A DNA stretch of 64,000 nt from assembly GCF_036785885.1 (NCBI RefSeq), contig NC_092320.1:10789557-10853556 (forward strand), in the 5' to 3' direction. The notes under the pieces were generated by a model. The model was given only the letters and a program-made list of their open reading frames with translations. It had not been told where the DNA came from and did no database searches. Every line of letters starts with the position of its first letter. Position 1 is the first letter of the stretch. The DNA comes from Coffea arabica (taxonomy: Eukaryota > Streptophyta > Magnoliopsida > Gentianales > Rubiaceae). The position numbers and the translations under genes were made by a program. Below, piece after piece: positions 303 to 15,300 of this stretch.

Positions 303-3300
303 CTAGAGTTTTAAATTAATCCTCTCAGACCATTTGAAAATATCAGAGTACACTCTATCTCCGCCAAGGTCTTGACCAGTAGCACCAGCTGCTACCCTGA
401 GAATATCTTCAATCAGTGCAAAATTTCCCATTATATCAACATGAGCACCACTTTGTGTACCCCTTCCCTCTAGAAGATTAGCTGGAGGCGCGTGATTATA
501 CTCCCTTATGTAGGTACGGATGCCAGAAGGATTAAACCGAGTCTTTCCGCGCCAACCTTTTGCAGACATGAAACCTGCGCTAAGTGTAGGAACTGTTTCA
601 TCTCCATCAACAGAAAATACTCCCCCTTTTAAACAAGTACCTTCATATCCAGCTTCAGCTGAGGTATCGATCCGGAAAGGGGTAAAGCACTCAGGGGTAG
701 GACTAAACTCGTAAACATATGCTCTTTCCGTGGGGATGCCAACTCCATACATTGACAAAATTTCCATGTCTGGGGCATTTGGTAATCTGCAAAAGCAACA
801 TATAAAGAACTTTGTGCTGTCAAAAAGGCTTCCTCTTGATCATGCAATTTGTGCAGAGATGATAAAGGAACATTTCCATTCTCATTTATAATGCCAACTC
901 CCAACAGATGAACAATTGGATGCTTGGAAAAAATAACACAAAGTAATTTTAGAAACTCATTGTAAATATATGCATAAAAAGGCGTATTTATGTGGTGAGA
1001 AGGAAGCACTTCTCACCCAAAATTTAATCAGAAGAAGGGAAGATTATTGATAAACTTAGGTTTAAACTCCAAGAAAGAACCTCACTTTGTTTCCAAAGGA
1101 TTTGACCAATATTTGTAGTGTTCATATTTTTCATCATCCAGATCATCAGCGATTCCATATGAAAAATGTGCACCACCTCGTTTCATCATCTTTGGTGCCA
1201 CAAAGTGAAGTAAATCCAAAACTGATCCTGCTGTGTAAACCTTAAAATCTGCAACAGCTTTGACACCCTCAACACCCATATCATGGTATTCATTCCATAC
1301 ATCGTGACAGGTTGTATTTGCAAGGTGATTGCCCTTCATAGCACCCTAAAGGTCAATAAGAAAGAAGGTAAGCTGAAAAAAAAACATGCATTTTGAATTT
1401 GATATAGACAGAAATGACATGACAGAAAATCAGAAAAAGATTCTGTTAATTAATTGAATGAGCCAGAATCCAATCTTCTGCAACATCATGCATCAGCCAC
1501 AAATTGTAGCACAGTGGCATGTCCCTCTCTTCCACTTTGCATTTGCATCAACAACATTTAGATTCTAATAAGAAATAGTGATACTGATTATTGCTGCAAC
1601 TGGATTCATATTCAATATTCTAGGTATTATGCATCGCATACAAGAAAATATAACTGCCACCTTAAAGTGCTGTATCTGAATCCTAATTACTCATCATTCG
1701 CACAATAAATTGTACTCAGAAGTTTCAGAAGGCTGCATAATAGGAGCATTCATCACATGAATTTCCAAGCATGCATTTGGTAGAAATCAAAGTGACAGTT
1801 GAATAAAATTTTTAAAAGAAAGGGGGGGGGGGGGGGGGGAAGGGAACGAGCTGGTTGATTTTGATCCAAGTTTTTACACTATTCACGATGGCCACCTGAT
1901 AACTACAAGATACCTAACTACAAGTCAATTAGATTGGCACACACCACAATGAAGTTATCAAAAACCTTGGAAAGGTTGCACAATTGACTAATAGGTGATG
2001 TTGTTTCCATCACTACTTGTCAAGAAAAAATCAATCTTTCCAAAGAAAACTTGCAAAAAAAGAACATAACCCCTATGCTAACCAATTTCCAGGGAACAAA
2101 AACAAGCATAGATATAAATGGTTCTATTACATATGGATCAACCACATAATGAAGACAAAATTGTTTTTTAGGGGACATAATTATTCGATAAATAAAAGTT
2201 GGCACCACTACCAATCTACTTAAAAGAATGAGCCATTTGTACAGGATTTTGGAAAGATTACTGGTGGGAGGTTCAGACGGGTATGTTTCCAATTTAATTA
2301 AATGGCCTATATATCATAAAGAAAAACAAGGTCAAATATTACCCTAAAATCAACTCTTTCAAGCTTTGATGAATGTAACTCAGCTACACCCTTCCCAAAT
2401 GAAATCATTCTTCCGTAATGAACCTGAGTTGCATTACCCAGATTCCCAAACCCATTTTGGCCTCCTGTTTCACTATTGTTGTTGTTCTGTTTCTTTGGGC
2501 TACACTCATACCCTTCTTCTGGAGACCAGTCAAGGCCACCCCAAATAGTGTCCCCACCCTTTGGAATCATTGACATGGTTGAATCCCAGGTACGAGTCAT
2601 TCGCATGACATGTTGCAAAGTTTGAAGACCAAATACATCCATATCCAGAAAACCTGGTGCCATACCCCTGTATGAAGATAAAATCTGCTTAGCAAAAGAT
2701 ACAAGGTACAGCTATAGAGAATAATTTTGATTGCCAGAATAAATTCCTAGTAGCTTTGGATTATCAACGAACATGGCAGAGTTCTACATTACATGATAAG
2801 AAAGAAAGTTAACAAGCTTATGTTGACAAAAAACAAAATTTACGCTTTCAACTCTATTTTACTTGGTGCATAGTTTTCAAGGTATTGCACCAAAGGACAG
2901 TGAAAACAAGAACTTGACACAGAAGCACTATATGAAGGTAAATATTGCGGAAGGGAGGGAGGGAGGGAGGGGGAAAGAGAGAGGGAGAGGGAGAGGGAGA
3001 GAGAGAGATCAAGGTAAGAGGGACCTAGAACCAACTTATCATAAGTTACGAGAAAAACCTGGCCACGGCTATATCTCTGGCTTCTGCAGAAAGTAACCCA
3101 GCAACTGATTTTGGGACACCCAGAAATGGTCCACCAATATTCATTACAGCCTTGATATGCTCAGCACACCAGTCTGAGCCACCTCCGCCACCCATGGGAG
3201 CTGGAGCCTCAACCCATTTCATAAAATGCAGGAAGTACAAAACACCCATTGAATGAGGAATTACCACCACCTTTTTTCCACCACTTGTAGCTACCATCAG

Positions 3301-6300
3301 TTCTATGTTACTCTTTATAGTGCTCAAAGTTTGGTCTCTAACCTGATCATTTGTAAAGCATTCATCTAAATTGTTAAGAGTAAGATCAGAAAAAAGGCAA
3401 GGTTAGGCAAACTTCTAAGGCAGAAGAGACCATTTCTACATCCATCAACATCCTCAGAAAATCATCAAAGATGCAATAGGAGAAAATTTTCTCGAGTGTT
3501 TCTCATGCATGGATGGAGTTCAAAAGTATTTCATCCAATAAGACACTTCCTATCGTCTCTGAGAAATTATTAAGGTTAAGAGCTGTCAAATTCCAATTTT
3601 CAGCCTAATGTATTCAGTGCACAAAACTCATAACAAATGAAAGCAGTCAAGCATGTCATGTGAGAGAGGGGAAAAGATCTATGAAGTGAGTTCTTATGAA
3701 AATTCAATACCTCAGTATTCTGGAACGATATCCTCCAATCATAAGCAGCCATGTACATGTTTTTCTCTTCATATCCGATGCGCGCCAAATTAGCTATCAA
3801 AACAGCCCATACAAAATAACCTGGTGCAAAGTAATCAGCTGCCACAAGTCCAGATACAGGTCTGATCCTTATACCAGGAGGATCCAAACCAGTTTCATTA
3901 TCCAGTGACATGTGCTCAGCCCAACACAAAGGTCTGCACGAAGAGCAGATAAACTCAAGGAACCAAGACAAAGAACTTAGATTACAAAGAAAAATAACTA
4001 AAGAGACATTGAGAGAACAAAAGGAACACCATTCGACCAGAAAGGAAGATATTCACAACGGCATCTACAGTAACCTATTAAATTGGATTTCCCACATGAT
4101 GGGAGAGCATGAAAGGTAGTGCTCCAGCATTTTACTATGAAACTATGCGTTAAAAATCTACCGTGCAGGGAAAAGATATTGTCTCTTGACTAAACCATAA
4201 AACTTTTTCCACAAACTTTAATTGATCATTTTGGATGTACAATCACAGAAATATGCAATAAATGAGCAGAATTGTGTGGTTAAATGTACTTACTACAAAA
4301 TCCTGCTTGCATGTATCCACTTCCAGCTTTAAAATGCAACACAATCTAAGAGAAACCACTGTATCTAGCCAGTGATGCTCTCAAGAATGTCTTATAATTT
4401 TGTTAGTCCTTTTTCTATGCGGTATTCTTTTGCAAGACACTGCCTTTTGCTTTTGATCGAAGTAATAAGCACACTATAATCTACCTAAAGGGGCAAAAGT
4501 TAGCAAGACAAAGCTACAGTCTGAGCATAAATAACCAATTGAACCTAAATTACACTACTACTACAACTTCTTCCGAGCTTAATCTCTTGCAATAAACAAT
4601 ATTAACATACTGGTAAATCACCAAAAACTGGTATCCCCTAGCATTGCGTTATAAGATGCTGTGATCCAATTACATCAATCATATGCTGGTATACAACTTC
4701 TTTTCTAAATCTTGTTCACCTGAGATCTTTTTTTTTTTTTTTTTTTTTTTCTTATCCTATATTTCAGATCCTTAAATTTTCATTTAACATCCAACACTTC
4801 TTAAGAGCCACAGGAGCAACATTTCAGCAATCTTTGCCACTAAATGGTGTAAGGATATAAATTTATGCAATTTAAGACTTCTGTACCTTAAAAGCAATAG
4901 TCACCTTGCCCCAGTAACCACTAACTGGTGTCGTCATCCTCTGTCTTAATGATCAGATATGTCCCTGAATCAGCTAAACAAATGATCCACAGGTAAAGAT
5001 GACATCTCATATTAATCTTTCGTATTTGAGTCCATTTTTCCCCCATCAGTATTTACCATATCAAAACTTCCTATTACGTCAAGCTTTGGTACAAACTAAT
5101 TAACAAATCAAAACTACATAGAATTTAGACTACCCACATGAAGCAAAACTTGAGTTTTCATTGAAAATTTCTCTTTCCTTTCTGAGAAATCTACAATATG
5201 AAGTTGTTACAACATAGCCGACCATCACTTGAAATCGTCCAATTTTGCACAAGATCTCCAAGTTTATGAGTTATACCTAATTACAAATTCAGTGAAAAGT
5301 AACTAGATTGCCCTGTCGCCTATAATTAAATAAAATTTATCCTTCAGCAACCGTAAATAACACACGCACACACTACCTAAGGGGAATCCACGGCCCAATC
5401 CAAAAGGCATGCTGACTTTCAGGCCACACCGAGGACCTTAAGTAGAACACACACACACCACTCACAATCGATGTGGGCTTAAGGAAAGGGGGAGGGGAAA
5501 CATCTAGACTATTGCCCAAAGGCTCACCTAATAAAATAAAATTTATAAAAAAAAAAAAAAAACTAGATTCCCCTGTCTAGAGAACACCTAGTCCCCATGA
5601 TTAGTTCAATGAAAGTACGCGGCCTTCACAAAGAAACGGACAAAGTAATTCAATGAAAACAAGTGACAAAGGAGAAGAAATGAGAGAGAGAGAGAGAAGA
5701 AGAAGAAGAAGAAGAAGAGATCTACAAGCAAGTTCTTTTGCAGTTTGGAGTATAAAACTTGAGCTTTCAAGTTCCCAGTAACCTCAGCATACCATTTCTC
5801 ATAAGGAGGGGAAAAAAAAAAGAATAATCCCTCAGCATGTCAACTGATAACACATGTTGCACTCCATCAATTCTATGATTCATTCAGTACCGTCCACTTT
5901 TTCTTCACACCAAAATTAATTAAAGCAGCTCTTAACAATTTCAACAATTACAGTTGCCCAATTAAACATGAAAATCAGGTTCCTGGATTAATCTAACAAC
6001 CCCCAGTTCAACATCAAAATAATACAAAACAGAAAACACCCAATATACACTGGGAAGCAACGCTACCTTTTATAGATTTCGCCAAATGTACCACCCCAGA
6101 GCCTCTTTCTAAACAGCCCTTCAGCACAATGATGCCCTTCCCACAACTCTAGCCCTCCAGTCACTATCCCGGGCACAAAAACCACCGGATGCTTTGCCTT
6201 CAACCCTTCCTTCGCCAGTTTCACTCCCGGCGGGTCTGGCAACGGCCCTGTGATTGCCTCCGTCACGTACTGCGGGAAAGACGCCGGCATTGCATTGTAA

Positions 6301-6569
6301 GAGAACAACAAAAACCACCATATCGAGCATATATAACCTACAAACCAACAACAACTATCCAAACAATTCCACGATCTCCCCCTCGACTTCGTACTCGATT
6401 TCCAATTCAAATTCTTGGAATTCTCATTCTCGTTCTCATTTACATTTAACTTTCCATTTTCAGCTTCAAAGTTTTTCTTTTGATCCTTATTTTCGTCGGA
6501 TTCTGATTGCAGCGGTGATGAAGTCAGAGGTTTTTTGGGTTCCGCACCCGCCTTTCTACGCCTAATCAT
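303..6569 (-). CDS. PDAT1: Phospholipid:diacylglycerol acyltransferase 1 (PDAT1-type)
   Basis: The enzyme moves an acyl group from the sn-2 position of a phospholipid to diacylglycerol, giving triacylglycerol and a lysophospholipid at the ER. Six exons join in phase: 6569-6067, 3933-3711, 3342-3059, 2667-2343, 1345-1086 and 786-303. The product is 692 aa, close to the roughly 670 aa of Arabidopsis PDAT1. Visible parts are a basic, Asn/Glu-rich N-terminus, one membrane anchor at about 72-91, and an LCAT-fold lumenal domain. The nucleophile Ser273 lies in PHSMG, Asp594 in VDGDETVP and His647 in SGAHVD, which together make the expected triad. The start ATG is followed by IRRRK, like the basic start of known PDATs. 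Intron 1 (2.1 kb) holds poly-T and GA tracts and a possible repeat. Similarity to the plant PDAT1 family as I remember it is strong along the whole length, and no break was seen. The exon count matches my recollection of the Arabidopsis gene. Confidence 0.95.
5340..5560. repeat. Unclassified repeat-like segment in PDAT1 intron 1
   Basis: This stretch of intron 1 has CA-rich runs, the motif CGATGTGGGC and a GGATTGGGCC-like box (read on the minus strand), and ends in an A-rich tract. The motifs resemble pieces of plant retroelement termini, but I see no paired ends or coding remnant. The class is not resolved. Confidence 0.25.
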
Positions 6570-7636
6570 CGATGCATGTGCCTATATACGTATACAATTG
6601 CTGCAACTAAACCTAGTCTATACATACATGTTTTTGTATGTATACACCAAAAGAATGATTAGTTCATTAAATGCCTGACCATCACGTTAGATAAATCTAA
6701 AACCCCAACTCCAATGATTGGGTCCATGCTCCACATTGGAGTCAACCCAAAACCGCACTTTTAATCAGTAGTAGGGAAGAAGAAGAAGATCTTTCCGGTG
6801 AAAGATCGGAAAATGAAGATTTTTCGGGATCGAATAAGGAAGAAGAAGAAGAAGAAGAAGAAGGGAGAAAGAAATTCGAGGGAAATGGAGGGATGCGTGT
6901 GGTGTCCAGTGGATGACGTGGAGAAATGGGGGTACCGTTGAATGGGTGGAAAATGACGGGGGTGGTTGGAGATCGTCAGACCGGACGGTGGGGAACTGAA
7001 GTGTGACGGCGCGATGAATGGCAGAGGGGGGGGGGAGGGCCTTAACTTTTGGTGGAAATGGGGTTTTTCTGGGAGTTTGGGAAGCGTTGAGGAGTGATGT
7101 GTAATTAGCGTAGAATCATTGCATGTCGAGCCAAAAAGGAATGTGACGTAGATCCTCTGCAAGTCTGGTCCTCTGAATCGCCGTCTGAACTTAGAATAGA
7201 AAGTTCAAACAAACAACAGCCAAAAAGGCCAAAAATACAATTGAGATTTGTTTTGGTGGGCGCTAAAATGAGGAGAAATTTCTTTTGCTTTTGGTTTTCT
7301 TTCTTTCTTTTTCCAGAACAACCTTCAGACTTTTTCTGGGTTTTGTATTCGGAACCATCTAGAGGTGCAAGGAAGGTACACTGTGATCAGCTCATGGTGG
7401 TCATTTAAAATGGAGGAGCATCATCTGTACCAACCAAACCGTACAACAAACAATTATTTATCTAAAACGCATGATCCAACCAACTTCCTCGTAGAAGTTG
7501 GCCAGATTATATGAATTGTGGGATGGAAGATCAAGGATTTAAATCTTAATTCTCATTAACGTATCGTCGCATATGTGACTTCTTTTAAATTCATAGAGAT
7601 ACGTGATGTACTCGTCTAATTCGATGATGATTCATG
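6570..7636. other. PDAT1 upstream region, no gene seen
   Basis: About 1.1 kb upstream of the PDAT1 start. It holds GAA-rich tracts near 6778-6863, which read as CT-rich leader sequence on the PDAT1 strand, and a G-run near 7026. This is probably the 5' UTR and promoter. No clear TATA box could be fixed. Confidence 0.5.
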
Positions 7637-7781
7637 GTGCGTTTGAATTATCATTTTTCAAAGAAAAATTATTATATTTTTCGTGAATACATTTTCAATC
7701 ACTTTTTTATTTCATATATATCAAATCGTTACTGTAATTGTTTTTATAAAAAATTCAAAAAAATACAATATGAACGAGGCC
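7637..7781. mobile_element. Small MITE, family 'GTTTGGATTG', copy 1
   Basis: An AT-rich unit of about 145 bp, starting GTGCGTTTGAATT and ending near a CAATATGAACGAGGC end. Its interior (TTCAATCAC..., TCAAATCGTTAC) is shared with copies at 11218, 17906 and 31582. The ends are weakly inverted. The superfamily is not resolved. Confidence 0.55.
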
Positions 7782-7916
7782 CAGTCTCCATTCCCGTCGA
7801 TTCTCTCGACTCGGTAAAGATTGAAGTAACAAATCTTTTCATCCTTCTAACTGAGTGTTCGTAACACAAACTTTAGATGTTCATATTTTGAAAAACATAA
7901 CATTAATTAAGAAAAA

Positions 7917-8098
7917 GAGCGAATTGCGCAAAATGTCACTAAACTATTTCAAAGTGCCGGTTCTGGTCACTAAACTTTTTTATTAGCGCGAAATATCACT
8001 GAACTAGTAAATCTGTACCGTTTTAATCACTCCGTGTATTTGTGCCGTCAGAAGAGACAGAAATCAACTTTTTGAAGGGCAAATTCGTTTGCACAGTC
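7917..8098 (+). repeat. Left TIR of the Pack-MULE
   Basis: This 182-bp repeat begins GAGCGAATTGCGC and is the inverted partner of 9349-9530. The two differ at only scattered bases. Both start exactly at the 9-bp target duplication. Confidence 0.93.
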
Positions 8099-8305
8099 AA
8101 AAATCATTGTTGTCACGAGCATTTTTCCATGCTTCAACTGCCATCTTTACATCACGCATAATATTAAATAAAAACCAAGTTCAATCAGTGTAATATTTCT
8201 TTAATTGACGCTGCCAAGTAGCGCCCATAATATTTCTTACTTTTGTGAGAAAATTTGGGAAACAAATAGGTGAGTGCTTGAGCCCGGCAGGATCCTATTG
8301 CATCC

Positions 8306-8680
8306 GCCATCGACCCATTCTTCCACGTCCTCAAAATCCTTCCCTATTCCTTCCTCCGCCCTCCTCGTCTACGTCTAAAGCTCCCATCCTTCACTCTTCC
8401 ATCCACCATGACCATCTACGCCTTGATCCTCCTCACCTACTTCCTCGTCGTGTCAGGGCTCGTCTACGATGTCATTGTTGAATCTCCGGGCATCGGATCT
8501 ACTCAGGATCCTCGCACCGGATCAGTTAGACCTGTTGTTTTCCTCCCGGGTCGGGTCAATGGGCAGTATATTATCGAAGGGCTCTCCTCTGGGTTCATGT
8601 TTGTTCTTGGCGGAATTGGGATTGTGCTTTTGGACTTGGCTTTGGACAAAAATCGGGCTAAAAGCGTCAAGGTTTCGTTT
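8306..8680 (+). pseudogene. Captured OSTC fragment (oligosaccharyltransferase subunit)
   Basis: Reading in the frame of the ATG at 8408 gives a segment matching plant OSTC (DC2-like, a small membrane subunit of the ER N-glycosylation complex). Upstream of that ATG the same frame already reads IDPFFHVLKILPYSFLRPPR, so 8408 is an internal Met. It continues through the membrane segment YALILLTYFLVVSG, then GIGSTQDP, RPVVFLPGRVNGQYIIEG and LDLALDKNRAKSVKVSF. Homology stops at about 8680, where the SPL piece begins, so the last 25-30 family residues (the final membrane helix) are missing. The first 15-20 residues are also missing, and a stop lies just upstream. No intron interrupts the piece. I infer a non-functional fragment, although the captured frame itself is open. 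Confidence 0.9.
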
Positions 8681-8686
8681 GACTCA

Positions 8687-9225
8687 AGATCCTGCTGGAC
8701 CCACTGCATCAGGTCTAAACAACGGGCTTCCTTCACTACCAACCAGAGAAGCGTATTCCAAACTCAGTTCATTTGCTATTCTCTCTGGGACATATCTTAA
8801 TAGTAGCTCCACCAAAGGCTTGGAATTTCTTCTCACTGCTCTGTGAAGGAGACCCATCTCAAACATTGCAGACCTTAACAAAGGCTGCTCTCTTGCACCT
8901 ATATTACCATCAAGAAGAAGATCTAGGAGTTTCTTCACGACAGCACACCAACCATGGTCTGCTGAGAACTGTATAATCCACTTGAATCGTGTGAAAGCAA
9001 ATGGATGAGAATTTTGATCTCAGTGCCCTAGTTTAGACTTCAACTGACTTCTATGGAGAAGCCAACCAAATTCATGTATAAAATCCATGGCCAATTTTCT
9101 ACTTTCGATTTTCACACCAAGACAATCTGTCTCAAGTAATTCCATTTCACTTTCAAACATACGGATATCAGAGCAAACATCCTTTTCAGCAACTATAAAA
9201 GGAAAAAAGCTGCTACTAAGGCCAA
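8687..9225 (-). pseudogene. Captured SPL1/SPL12-type SBP-box factor fragment
   Basis: On the minus strand this reads as the C-terminal part of a large SQUAMOSA PROMOTER BINDING-LIKE protein, after the SBP DNA-binding domain and leading into the ankyrin region. Recognisable blocks are [55 protein letters not shown] and LFRPDAVGPAG, where the family continues into LTPLHIAAG. The piece is cut off there at the join with OSTC. One in-frame stop follows KLGH, so it is broken as well as truncated. No SBP box is present. It lies antisense to the OSTC piece within the same Pack-MULE. Confidence 0.9.
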
Positions 9226-9348
9226 GATCTTCAAGCTGGATGGTTAAAATATATCAAGAGTAAGGAAAACAAGGAGAATTGCACCCAAATCATAAATTGG
9301 AAAAAAAGAATTTAAATTTTCTCACTATATTAAATAACCAACAGAAGA

Positions 9349-9530
9349 GACTGTGCAGACGAATTTGCCCCTCAAAAAGTTGATTTCCGTCTCTCCTGAC
9401 GGCACAAATACACGGAGTGACCAAAACCGTACAGATTTACTAGTTCAGTAACATTTCGCGCTAATAAAAAAGTTTAGTGACCAGAACCGGCACTTTGAAA
9501 TAATTTAGTGACATTTCGTGCAATTCGTTC
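9349..9530 (-). repeat. Right TIR of the Pack-MULE
   Basis: Inverted partner of 7917-8098. Read on the minus strand it begins GAACGAATTGCACG at 9530 and abuts the right copy of the 9-bp target duplication. Confidence 0.93.
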
Positions 9531-9539
9531 TAAGAAAAA

Positions 9540-11217
9540 TATATCAATGCAGGGTATAACAATTAATTGTCAGTGTACGAAATCACGCAATAGGTTATGT
9601 CATCAACACACACTACTGTATTCTCGTGACGAGCACTTATTTTATAATAATAATAAAAAAAACCCTTTAATAAATTACAACAGCGATTACAAACAGAGCT
9701 GCGTAGGTCATGTCCATCTCTGTTGGATAAAGGAACGGAGATGTGTGGGTGTCAATTTCTGATGGATTGCTTATGTAAGGTGGAGGGGCCCAGCTGAGGC
9801 CATTCCAATATTTTTCCCTATGAGGCTATGACATGTTTCTACTACTGTCCGTCGAGTTAACGAAACGGAACATATCTGATGGTTCTACCGTCCATTTGGT
9901 TTAAAGTAATGACAACGACCCTATGACATGTTTCTACTGTCCGTTTAAGGAAACAGGGGGCTGCCCTTCCCAGCATCCATAATAATGCTAATGCTGACAG
10001 AATCTGAGTGCTGCGGACTTCGCACTTGGCCGTCTATGCATGCGACAAAAAAGTCCTTGTGCAAGATCCTCATAATTTTAAAGCTACTATTTCCATGGGC
10101 TTGACAAAAATGCGTTCAAGCCATTGCAGCCCAATAGTTTCTCCATATTCACAACACAAGCAATCCTTCCTTTTTTTTTTTTTTTTTGCACCGTAGTCCT
10201 TTAGTTATCAAACCCATTGAAGATTAATTTTCCTAACACTATGGAAACTAGACGTAACGAAGAAAAATATGATCCAACTAAAATTGTAATCATCCAATGA
10301 ACCCAAGGTAGAGGTCCTTCAGATAGTACGTAGGGACAAATGGACCAATTTTACACCATAAGTTGCCAGCCCAGATTGAGTTGCTCGAGGAAAAAAATTG
10401 GATCTCACAAGGGCAAAGGAGAAGAGGAAGAGCCCAAGCCCACTTAAGCAAAAAGATTATACAGGAAAAATAATACATATATTAAAAAAAAGGTCTTTTT
10501 ACCAAAGGGGGCCATTTTAAGATGCGGCTCGTCCATTTGGATTAAAGGCTCAAAAAGGACAAAAAAATATCGCCACCACTATGTTCATGAGTTAACCCGC
10601 GACAGTGATGTTGCATGAAATACAAAAAGCAAAGTCCCCAGTCCTCCCCCCCCCCCCCCCCCCCCCCCCCCCCAAACAACCACTTAAAAGAAGAATCTAA
10701 CTTTGAAAGTATAAATACAAAAGGAAATTAGAAATAAAAAAGAAAAAGAAGACAAAAGGCCCACTAAAGCTTTAGCTTAAGCTTCGCAGATCCAAAGCCA
10801 CTGAGTCTTTTTTTTTTTTTTTCTTTCTTTGTTTTTCAAAGAAAAAAGAAAAGAAAAAAGATTTTTGGTAAAGTGAGCATTCTCCTTTTACTCGAACTTA
10901 CTTAGTCAGCACGTACCATAGATTACTATTATTACATACTGAAAGTGGCTTGTGACCTTGATCCAGAATGTGAAACATGACCAAACTCAAATAAAACCAT
11001 ATTTCCACTTTTGGTCTTTCAAAATCTAAAAATTCTCCTAAATGTACTAATTAAGACCAAAAACATGCGTATAAAAATATAATGACAAGCATATCCGTTT
11101 CGTAACGCAACCTTTTTGGTTGGTGTGATACGTACACAGAGCACGGTCTCGTAATTAGTAGTACCAGATTATGTACTAGTAGTACCAGTTACAACTTCAT
11201 GATCCGAGGAATTTTAG
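9540..11217. other. Intergenic, no gene seen
   Basis: This stretch has low-complexity tracts: a 28-base C run at 10646-10673 and long T/A runs near 10171 and 10809. A short motif, CTATGACATGTTTCTACT, occurs twice at about 9825 and 9921. No coding frame is recognisable. The C run may be a sequencing or assembly weak point. Confidence 0.5.
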
Positions 11218-11541
11218 GGCGCGTTTGAGTTGCAATTTTTCTTCTGGTTGGATAGGGTGTTATTTGAAATAATTATTGTAACATTTTTTTATGGTTTGAT
11301 GTATGTGAGATAAAAAAAAGATAATTGAAAATATAAAAAAGTGAGTTGAAAAATGTGTTTACGAGGTAAGCGAAATATTATTTGCCAAAAAAAAAAGAAA
11401 TATTATTTGAAAAAATAAGGTATCCAAACAAATCCCGCGTGTACATATTTTTTAATCATCTTTTTATTTCACATATATTAAATCGTTACTGCATTTTTTC
11501 TATAAAAATTTCAAAAAAAATGCAATTCAAACAAAGCCTTA
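11218..11541. mobile_element. MITE copy 2 plus an adjoining partial copy
   Basis: 11218-11439 starts GGCGCGTTTGAG and ends TATCCAAACAAATCCCGCG, a loose inverted pair. It shares ATGTGAGATAAAAAA and TGAAAAATGTGTTTAC (inverse strand) with the copies at 7637, 17906 and 31582. About 10 bp further on, 11448-11541 matches only the right half of the family (TTCACATATATTAAATCGTT, CAATTCAAACAAAG). This is a second, truncated unit side by side with the first. Confidence 0.55.
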
Positions 11542-11720
11542 GGTACAGTTGATGTTGCAGATTACATACCAAAGAAAATGTTATACTTATTTAACTTTAG
11601 AAAAATGTTATTTGTATTGTCACTATTTATTTTATCATATAATTTGGCATGTGAATAATATATGATTAAAATTATAATAAAAATGTGATTAAAAAATAGG
11701 GGTATAAATAACATTTTCTT

Positions 11721-11723
<3 letters not shown>

Positions 11724-11763
<40 letters not shown>

Positions 11764-11876
11764 GTGCGTGTCTGTGTGTATGATTTTTTATTTTTATTTT
11801 TTATTTCTGGGAGGGGAGGGGAGGGGAGGGGAGGTGAGGGGTGTGGCGGGGGACTGGGGGAGGGGTTTGGAGGGTT
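11724..11876. repeat. (TA)n microsatellite and G-rich tract before the BRX gene
   Basis: About 39 bp of TA repeats (11724-11762), then a run of GGGGA units from 11809 to 11876 on the plus strand. The spaced G runs could form a G-quadruplex about 450 bp upstream of the BRX start. Confidence 0.7.
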
Positions 11877-12324
11877 GATTTTAATGCATTGGAATCTCTT
11901 AGATGGCGCAATTTAAGGGATGCAATAAAAAGTTGCCTGGGCACCATCTCCATTTCCCTAGCGGCTAGTGCTTCGTTATCTCCCCACCCCTTTCTTCATT
12001 TCTTACCATTTTCTCAACTCAACCCCACCAAGCTAGCTACCCTCTACTGCTCCCCACTCTCCACAATCCATCCCTCCCATTCTTCTTTTCCCCATATTCG
12101 GGTACTAATATATGCCTTTCACTCCCATTTCTTTCATTTTTTCTTCTCAATTTCGTATCTTCATCTTATGCTGTTTCTGGTTTCGAAGGTTATTTGCAGA
12201 ATTCTAGTGGCTGGTATATCATGACAACGTTGTTTCCTTGATCAACTTTCAAATTTGCTCCCACAGCAGAGAGCCGTACCAATACGATCGGGCAAACGGA
12301 GAGAAGAACAAAAACATTAAAAAG

Positions 12325-15300
12325 ATGCTAACATGCATAGCACGTTCCAAGCAACCCACGGATGATTCCGTTGATCATGAGCCCAATGGCAATCCCACTA
12401 GTAAACAAGCCATCAGAAATCTCACTTCTCAGGTGCAATCCAATTCCCAACACCCTTCATCACTAAAGAGATTCTCTCTGAAATATACTTGAACGCATAA
12501 ACTTTTTTATGTGTCCCACACATTTTCTTACGTTGATTTATGGTTCAATGGCAGATTGTTTCCTAACTTCATCTTTTTTTAAAAAAATTTATGTTTGGTT
12601 TTGAGGTGTTAAAGATCAAGGATATGGCATTGAAGGCTTCAGGGGCGTATCGTCACTGCAACCCGTGCACGACTCAGCCGGTGCAGCAGCAGCCGCGGAA
12701 GAATGGGAGCAGCAGCGGCGGCGAGTCGGACTCGGTGTTGTCCGCCTCGTCCGAGAGGTTCCGGTGGTCCTACAGGCGGACGGGGAGCTCCAACTCCAGC
12801 TCCACTGCGGGGAGGAAGGAGCTGGAGGCTAGGTTGAAAGGAATTTCCAGCGGCGAAGGAACGCCGGTATCAGCGAGTGGTCGGCGAGTCGACCCGGTGG
12901 TGTTCGTGGAAGAGAACGAGCCTAAAGAATGGGTGGCTCAGGTGGAACCCGGTGTTTTAATTACCTTTGTCTCTTTGCCACGCGGCGGCAATGATCTTAA
13001 GCGAATTCGGTTTAGGTAATTAATACTCTCTTATTTTCTACACATAATTTTATCTGAATTTTGACGGAGTTTGGTGAGATTTTTATTTTTATTTTTTTTA
13101 AAATTATTGTTCTCCTCTGGATATAGACCTCTCCATTAATGCCATGTCTTTAGTTTTCACTTTTCGCATATGATAGTAAAAAAAAAAAAAAAAAAAAACT
13201 AGTAATTTTTTTTTTTAAAAATCACAATATTTTACTTACTATTTATTTTATGGTGATATTGGCATATATCGTACATACTACATGTAATCCAAAAAGGTGA
13301 ATTATTTCTTTTCCAGAAATAAACACTAGTTGTGATAATAATTGAGTTGTCAGTGGTGACTATGATTTGGCATAATTAATTTCTTGGACCAACCTGCTGC
13401 CGAAGTTTCTATCTTGACAAAGTTGCCCTCTCGTGGATTTCATGAGCAAATGTTGCATTACTAGCCAAGAAACTGCCGCAAACCTTTTAATGCATACATT
13501 TACTTTATACTGGCCACGCTATTGAAAAGCTCTCTATTCTAGTCTTCTAATTTCACTTCTTACCTTTCCTTTCCTCCCCCCCCTTTTTTTTTTTTTGAAT
13601 CTAAAAAAATTACAGAGGGCAGAAAACTTCAAGAGTGAAAATTCTCACTTTCGCGTTCGAGTGATATGTGGGGTTATAGTTTAATTGAATGTCAAGTCAT
13701 GCCCATCATAATGTGAGACACTTTAGCGCAAGAGAACATGTATACATCAAGTAGAGAATAAAAGAGCCTAGTTATATAATGACATGGGGAATTTCTTGGA
13801 AGGATTTCTCTAATATGAGAGGGAAGCTGCGTCATTGACTTGTGTTCGTGAGTTGCCTTAAAAAGGGTTGTAAAAGATTTCTAAAAGTTCACCTAAAAAA
13901 CTTCTTCTCTTTATAGGATTGTTTATACCTTTTGCTGCTTTCCTGCATCTTGTGGATAATGCCACCCAATACAATGAATTGATCATGCATATTTTTTATG
14001 TTGAAATGGCGAACAAATGATGGCCCAATACTGGTTATTGGTAGTTTCTATCATTTCCAGCAATGTGCAAATGTCAGGTATGGTTATGGTGTAGGTGGGA
14101 AGGAAACAGGGGGTTTGGTTTTTGTTTGCCATGCAAAAAGGATACTTATTGCACTTATTACAAAAAGCAAGCGTGTTAAAAGTAAATTTTGACGCTCCAT
14201 AAAAGTGGGTTTTAATCCTCCGTTAATTTCAAACCACCAGCATTTAGCAGGGCTTGAAGCAATTATGCTCTTGAGATAATGGAAAGGCCATGAGAATATT
14301 TATAGGACTTTGGCTACTTTTCAAAGTCCACAAAGGCAAAAAAGCAACAAATTCATCAAGACTTTGGTGGGTCAGGTTTGATTGTGTTGGCCAACCTTTC
14401 ACTAGTTGTTGCAGTCTTGTCGGAAGATTGCAAATGCTTTCATTTTCCATCTTCCTCACGCGCACCGTTTGATTTGTCATCTTGTACCATTGTTGTCAAT
14501 TTGTCTGTGAAGGACTAGGATGTAGGCGTTGCAACATTTGCACTTGCGGTCGCTTACAACTGCAATTTTGACAAAATGTGAATCTGAAATTGGCTTCTAA
14601 ATAAGGGACATTACTGGGGAGCTTTCACTTTCTTGTTTGCTTAGAGTAAATACTACTATGATAAGGATGTAGCATTGTGAGATGGATGATTCATTTTCCA
14701 GGGGACCATAAAACTCTCTTCCTTTCTTGATGATGATAATGAACCCTCGTGCCACGGATATCCCAAATAACCTAATATTTTGTAAGGTTGGACATATTGT
14801 ACTAGCTTTCTGGACTTCTAATATCTCTTCATGGATTGTGACTCAATATCCAAACCCGTGAAATGACTGGCTGTTTTCTTGGTTGGCTGCTTTCGCAAAT
14901 TATGAGTCATGACCCCATTGTTTATTCACACTCTGAAAGCATCCATCCAAAGTCAAATCTATTCCCTTTCATCATCCATGCACCATGGATAGTTGTGGTT
15001 TTTTAAGTATGAATGGCGTCCTCTACTCCAAGAAATTTGTGGTGGCCTAGCTTAGTGGCCTACCACAATTAACACTGGTTGAATAAAGAATGAACTACTA
15101 CTTTGCTAGGTGTAATCTTGTTTACCATAAGAATTCAGGAAGAATAATAATAAGAACAATAAAGAAATGTAATGGCAGGTATAGGGAACAAATCACTACT
15201 TCGTCCACCACGAAAACCAATAACAAAGTAATGCAGCACAAGAAATTTCTCTTATTGATGTTTCCATTGCTATGAGTTAGGCATATACAAAATTAAAAGA

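Follow-up and report, generated by a model that had tools for sequence, protein, structure and literature searches.

A Coffea arabica Pack-MULE carrying a fragment of an OSTC gene inside captured SPL gene sequence

The stretch analyzed here (the window) comprises 64,000 nucleotides of the Coffea arabica genome (C11:10789557-10853556) and contains a transposed, nonautonomous Mutator-like element (MULE) of the Pack-MULE type that carries DNA from two host genes, one of the SPL family and one encoding OSTC. Pack-MULEs are recognized by long terminal inverted repeats (TIRs), a 9-bp target-site duplication (TSD), the lack of a transposase, and fragments of host genes whose donors lie elsewhere. The element is a clear new example of this well-known kind, an ordinary gene-carrying Pack-MULE. 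A preliminary description of the window had named it as such, and the donor loci, the five copies in the genome, a relative with transposase domains, and the empty insertion site reported below all support that identity. With high confidence, we favor an account in which the element would have arisen by gap-repair capture with template switching, been mobilized in trans, and become a decaying passenger, probably without a selected function. Its value is mostly that of a clean, recent Pack-MULE: the junctions can be read because the donors are still 97 to 98% identical to the window copy, the empty site is preserved, and five copies exist.

Ends and insertion site of the element

The two 182-bp TIRs align in inverted orientation at 169 of 182 positions, and a repeat search of the window scored the pair as 183 nt at 93%. 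Random inverted pairs of 182-bp segments from the window (up to 20,000 drawn, with pairs less than 200 bp apart skipped) peaked at 80/182. The flanking TSD, TAAGAAAAA, is perfect (9/9). Both features had been claimed in the preliminary description, and both stand, the duplication being further supported by a site that lacks the element. In the genome searched (1.198 Gb in 131 contigs, labeled C2, C4, and so on), a collinear region of C12, read as a homoeologue, aligns without gaps to the joined flanks of the window copy at the insertion point and carries a single copy of TAAGAAAAA. A chance inverted repeat is excluded by the distance between the random maximum and the observed identity. An assembly artefact is likewise excluded by this clean empty site and by five copies with distinct flanks and TSDs, and we give either origin virtually no credence. 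The collinearity with C12 extends over window positions 1515 to 13025 (C12:9610500-9620400) in seven blocks of 86 to 98% identity, and we read it as a duplication of recent date, either of the whole genome or of a large segment.

Donor genes

The OSTC piece matches two OSTC sequences from PDB (best E value, 4.6e-25). Its genome search returned seven matches: the five element copies (on C11, C4, C14, C7, and C16) and two OSTC loci, on C10 and C9, with 97 to 98% identity and uninterrupted 159-amino-acid frames. Since the donor frame is uninterrupted, the piece is uninformative on intron removal. The SPL search returned 15 matches, comprising the five copies, two C2 loci that each also gave one further, short match, and six more distant loci (69 to 73% identity). 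The C2 locus used for coordinates, L052 (C2:55485000-55494900), is identical at 652 of 662 positions and encodes an SBP domain upstream of the captured region (E value, 4.9e-18; model positions 1 to 48 of 75). The SPL gene was identified through this adjoining domain because a Pfam scan of two SPL-side open reading frames (ORFs) gave only matches below the cutoff, a weak ankyrin match in one and an unrelated COQ9_N match in the other. We take the gene to be SPL1/12-like on the strength of C-terminal motifs and of the preliminary description, the Pfam ankyrin matches being below the cutoff. The OSTC and SPL matches proposed earlier are thus borne out, and the search for parental loci found OSTC on C9 and C10 and SPL on C2, with no TIR match within the 8 to 10 kb fetched at each locus.

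Each donor gene has a second, closely similar locus in the genome. The majority sequence of the five copies departs at 3 of 379 sites from both OSTC loci; for the right SPL piece, the count relative to both SPL loci is 2 of 658. At the nine sites that distinguish SPL-a from SPL-b, the majority agrees with SPL-a at seven and with SPL-b at two. On these counts, the SPL donor may have been SPL-a, SPL-b, or an ancestor predating the SPL duplication. The two SPL loci, L052 and L053 (C2:55742500-55752400), are near identical (98.1% over 6.5 kb) and lie 257 kb apart in opposite orientation. In each, a 58-bp stretch next to the captured region is present a second time at 88% similarity.

OSTC lies within a single SPL capture

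The preliminary description had presented OSTC and SPL as two adjoining pieces in opposite orientation, about 7 bp apart. The donor loci uphold the opposite orientation (OSTC on the plus strand, SPL on the minus strand). The arrangement is different: SPL sequence flanks OSTC on both sides (Table 1), and the OSTC/SPL junction in question is a 9-bp filler (8682-8690). Read against L052, the element runs from 5604 to 5477, through a 37-bp replacement, from 5472 to 5437, through OSTC, and from 5169 to 4508 up to the right TIR. The interior therefore reads as a single capture of genomic SPL sequence, about 1.1 kb long and collinear with the donor, with 379 bp of OSTC in place of 267 bp (L052 5436-5170). 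Everything between the TIRs is SPL or OSTC except positions 8099 to 8100, 8229 to 8265, 8302, and 8682 to 8690. To the left of OSTC, 164 of 204 bp are SPL, which rules out derivation of these left 200 bp from a MULE interior, and genomic matches to region 8095 to 8310 are limited to the two SPL loci on C2 and the five copies themselves. A retroposed SPL copy is also ruled out, since collinearity with the genomic sequence of the donor extends to stretches that lie beyond its open exon frames.

At the right capture point, the TIR and the SPL donor have GACT in common; no clear microhomology is seen at the left one. The left OSTC junction consists of a single base (8302) belonging to neither piece. 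The 37-bp stretch at 8229 to 8265 yields matches of 12 to 13 bp to a 5.7-kb MULE, 10 bp elsewhere in the element, and 9 bp to SPL. In the four other copies, this insert holds a perfect inverted repeat, TTTCTTAC/GTAAGAAA.

Filler sequence and mechanism of capture

The majority form of the 9-bp filler, ACTCAGGAT, occurs once in the OSTC donor, within the captured piece, and was not found in the SPL and MULE templates tested. The window copy has the variant ACTCAAGAT, and the C7 copy has one further change. The match extends through CCT, the opening bases of the resumed SPL sequence, giving a 12-bp match in OSTC. Among 20,000 shuffles, matches to the OSTC piece arose twice for 12-mers and 73 times for 9-mers. 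A filler copied from the OSTC piece suggests gap repair with template switching, and its origin within the captured piece favors such replicative repair over simple end joining.

In the mechanism we propose, a break or gap between MULE TIRs would have been repaired with about 1.1 kb of genomic sequence, introns included, copied from an SPL gene. Either during that repair or during a later one within the SPL stretch, synthesis would have switched to an OSTC gene and copied 379 bp, jumped about 180 bp back within OSTC, where it copied ACTCAGGATCCT, and returned to SPL at the common CCT, skipping 267 bp. Three points weigh against this reconstruction: the filler match was noticed post hoc; the 37-bp stretch has matches to candidate templates of just 6 to 13 bp, which leaves it unexplained; and, with respect to capture order, no SPL-only precursor is present among the 15 SPL-search matches.

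The order of capture admits two versions. A Pack-MULE holding SPL alone may have formed first and later had an internal break patched with OSTC. We regard this sequence of events as close to an even prospect: apart from the internal 267 bp that OSTC replaces, the SPL capture is collinear, and every junction could represent a separate repair. However, the missing SPL-only element counts against it, and a single event in which both gap ends invaded SPL would yield an identical map. Alternatively, one continuous repair may have started on SPL, switched to OSTC, jumped back within it, and resumed on the same SPL template 267 bp farther along, producing a two-gene Pack-MULE in a single step; this is a serious candidate that we would put somewhat short of an even chance.

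Table 1. Features of the Pack-MULE in window coordinates
Feature	Position	Strand	Basis or remark
Left TSD, TAAGAAAAA	7908..7916		Single copy at C12 empty site
Left TIR, 182 bp	7917..8098	+	169/182 versus right TIR
SPL piece 1, gene antisense	8101..8228	-	L052 5604-5477, 122/128; read as intron end plus start of next exon
37-bp stretch replacing 4 donor bp	8229..8265		Short template matches only
SPL piece 2, gene antisense, read as intronic	8266..8301	-	L052 5472-5437, 94% over 36 bp
OSTC piece, sense, 379 bp, codons 6-131 of 159	8303..8681	+	Donor loci, PDB OSTC match
130-amino-acid ORF: 91 OSTC residues (M41-F131) plus 39-residue non-OSTC tail	8408..8800	+	First in-frame ATG at 8408
9-bp filler	8682..8690	+	ACTCAGGAT in majority of copies, ACTCAAGAT in window copy
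SPL piece 3, gene antisense: coding plus flanking noncoding (read as intron)	8691..9348	-	In-frame TGA 9020-9022
Right TIR, 182 bp	9349..9530	-	Inner GACT common to SPL donor at capture point
Right TSD, TAAGAAAAA	9531..9539		Matches left copy

Copies of the element and the transposon family

The five copies are 1,601 to 1,615 bp long, differ pairwise by 0.74 to 2.75%, and are flanked by five different perfect 9-bp TSDs (5/5). The TIR pairs of the other four copies are identical at 175 to 180 of 182 positions. Private substitutions number 28 in the window copy, 15 in C16, 11 in C7, 8 in C14, and 3 in C4, and the C16 copy has an additional 13-bp deletion. When single-copy changes are set aside, only three sites are shared by some copies, in three conflicting groupings. 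Such a star-like pattern is as expected if all copies derive from one master.

The preliminary description had also pointed to a search for further TIR copies, which gave at least 40 scored matches among 441 candidates, the four other element copies among them. We fetched 20 regions out of 40 scored matches: 4 contain the other copies, 13 contain further elements with both ends inside the fetched stretch, and 3 show a single end. Among the 13 further members, 12 TSDs are perfect (that of L025 being a run of A) and one matches at 8/9. Three 5.7-kb elements share the TIRs and the 9-bp TSD of the window element: L024 (C14:14972200-14979100), L025 (C2:6367600-6374500), and L026 (C22:62607000-62613900). 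Identity to L024 is 98.5% for L025 and 98.4% for L026. L024, the one scanned, contains MuDR DNA-binding, MULE, and SWIM domains (PF03108, PF10551, and PF04434); the other two have the same frames, more broken. In the window element, a Pfam scan of three of the 12 listed ORFs detected no transposase. These 5.7-kb elements are the likely source of the element's transposase, and the finished element would have been mobilized in trans by it to at least five places. The transposase frames of L024 to L026 are broken up by stop codons, changes of frame, or introns, so that their present activity is no more than possible.

Other members of the family differ in content. One with the same ends contains fragments of a PPR gene (L034:1544-2810; C14:8847500-8851200) and is thus a further gene-capturing member. 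Another, also with the same ends, contains a fragment of a different MULE transposase (L031:1501-2097; C17:35414000-35417700; PF10551; E value, 2.4e-14). Four 1.4-kb elements (L016, L022, L027, and L033) have interiors of about 960 bp without a match to the 5.7-kb element; L016 has a 185-amino-acid stop-free frame with no Pfam match at an E value of 0.01. Another captured gene is possibly present here.

Coding potential of the captured pieces

The preliminary description had reported an open OSTC frame containing most of the protein. Codons 6 to 131 of 159 were indeed captured; however, the first in-frame ATG, at 8408, yields 91 OSTC residues and a 39-residue tail. Changes in the OSTC frame that are confined to one or two copies comprise 11 nonsynonymous and 7 synonymous occurrences (10 and 6 distinct sites), compared with 123:76 among possible C>T/G>A changes (P = 1.0; small numbers). 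Change in the OSTC frame thus fits neutrality, and purifying selection on this frame, as a selected protein role would entail, is not seen. The 13-bp deletion shifts the OSTC frame of the C16 copy, and the SPL-frame TGA at 9020 to 9022 is present in all five copies (5/5). Taken together, neutral change, the frameshift, and the stop count against a role played by a protein, but not against one played by RNA.

The plant could still be imagined to use a shortened OSTC-like protein ending in a new tail, given an ORF of 130 amino acids from the ATG at 8408 that also reaches 130 amino acids in C14 and 145 in C4. Such a product would start at an internal methionine and lack 40 residues of the donor at its beginning and 28 at its end; C16 is frameshifted; the ratio of nonsynonymous to synonymous changes matches the expectation without selection; and the C4 tail is unlike that of C11 and C14 (the ORF was not read in C7 and C16, where the start string differs). 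We consider this use hardly credible.

Substitution spectrum and silencing

The 65 private substitutions comprise 48 C>T changes, 8 T>C changes, and 9 transversions. Per site, C>T changes occurred at 12 of 114 CG, 11 of 130 CHG, and 25 of 452 CHH positions. This spectrum makes past cytosine methylation of the copies likely, and it is from the spectrum alone that we infer silencing; the element would now be decaying as a passenger, perhaps methylated. Control pairs gave transition-to-transversion ratios of 82:63 for the SPL loci, 249:103 for the OSTC loci, and 59:32 for L024 versus L026. Several observations temper the methylation reading. The spectrum consists of 65 changes, 28 of them from one copy, and the lower transition share of all three control pairs relative to the element copies comes from unpolarized comparisons. 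Moreover, the L024/L026 pair lacks so strong a bias, and its 59:32 ratio tells against a simple methylation reading because those transposons should be silenced too.

A regulatory RNA role

Opposing read-through transcripts could in principle form double-stranded RNA (dsRNA) whose small interfering RNAs (siRNAs) lower expression of OSTC, SPL, or both, making the element a trans-acting regulator of genes that we take to be essential. Each copy shares 206 to 292 perfect 21-mers with the fetched OSTC-a region and 513 to 597 with that of SPL-a, introns included, so small RNAs from the copies that match the donors are possible in principle. A review describes Helitrons, Pack-MULEs, and Sireviruses of maize that hold captured sequence as siRNA reservoirs able to silence their donors (PMC13317346). 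However, shared 21-mers are expected from any recent capture. In addition, if a transcript paired with itself, its stem would consist of the TIRs and its loop of the gene pieces; therefore, host-directed dsRNA would need separate opposing transcripts. We judge this regulatory role very improbable, and a claim of gene regulation would gain importance only with support from small-RNA data.

Relation to known gene-capturing elements

Rice Pack-MULEs, reportedly the subject of Jiang et al. in 2004 (a study cited in PMC13317346), resemble the coffee element in their long TIRs, 9-bp TSDs, lack of transposase, and host gene fragments with donors elsewhere. In contrast, the present case comes from another plant, with OSTC embedded in one SPL capture and a filler copied from a captured piece. 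Within the coffee genome, the MuDR-type MULEs L024 to L026 have the same TIRs and a 9-bp TSD; L024 encodes transposase domains, whereas none were found in the window element. Multiparent MULEs are known, and among MULE-derived chimeric putative genes in Oryza, only a small proportion is described as functionally constrained (PMC4858842). No transcript of the coffee element is known, no search for one having been made. The origin of Pack-MULEs has been termed perplexing in a study of animal Pack-TIRs (PMC8277862). That study reports microhomology or short insertions at capture points and multicopy forms with distinct TSDs, both as seen here, and discusses gap-filling and FoSTeST models; the examples named with these findings are hAT and FB4 elements, not MULEs. 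A literature search pairing Pack-MULE with squamosa promoter binding, and not asking about OSTC, returned one paper, on rice ankyrin genes.

Host coding stretches near the insertion belong to a BRX-domain gene (PF08381) at window positions 12567 to 13016 and an LCAT-like gene (PF02450) at 306 to 839.
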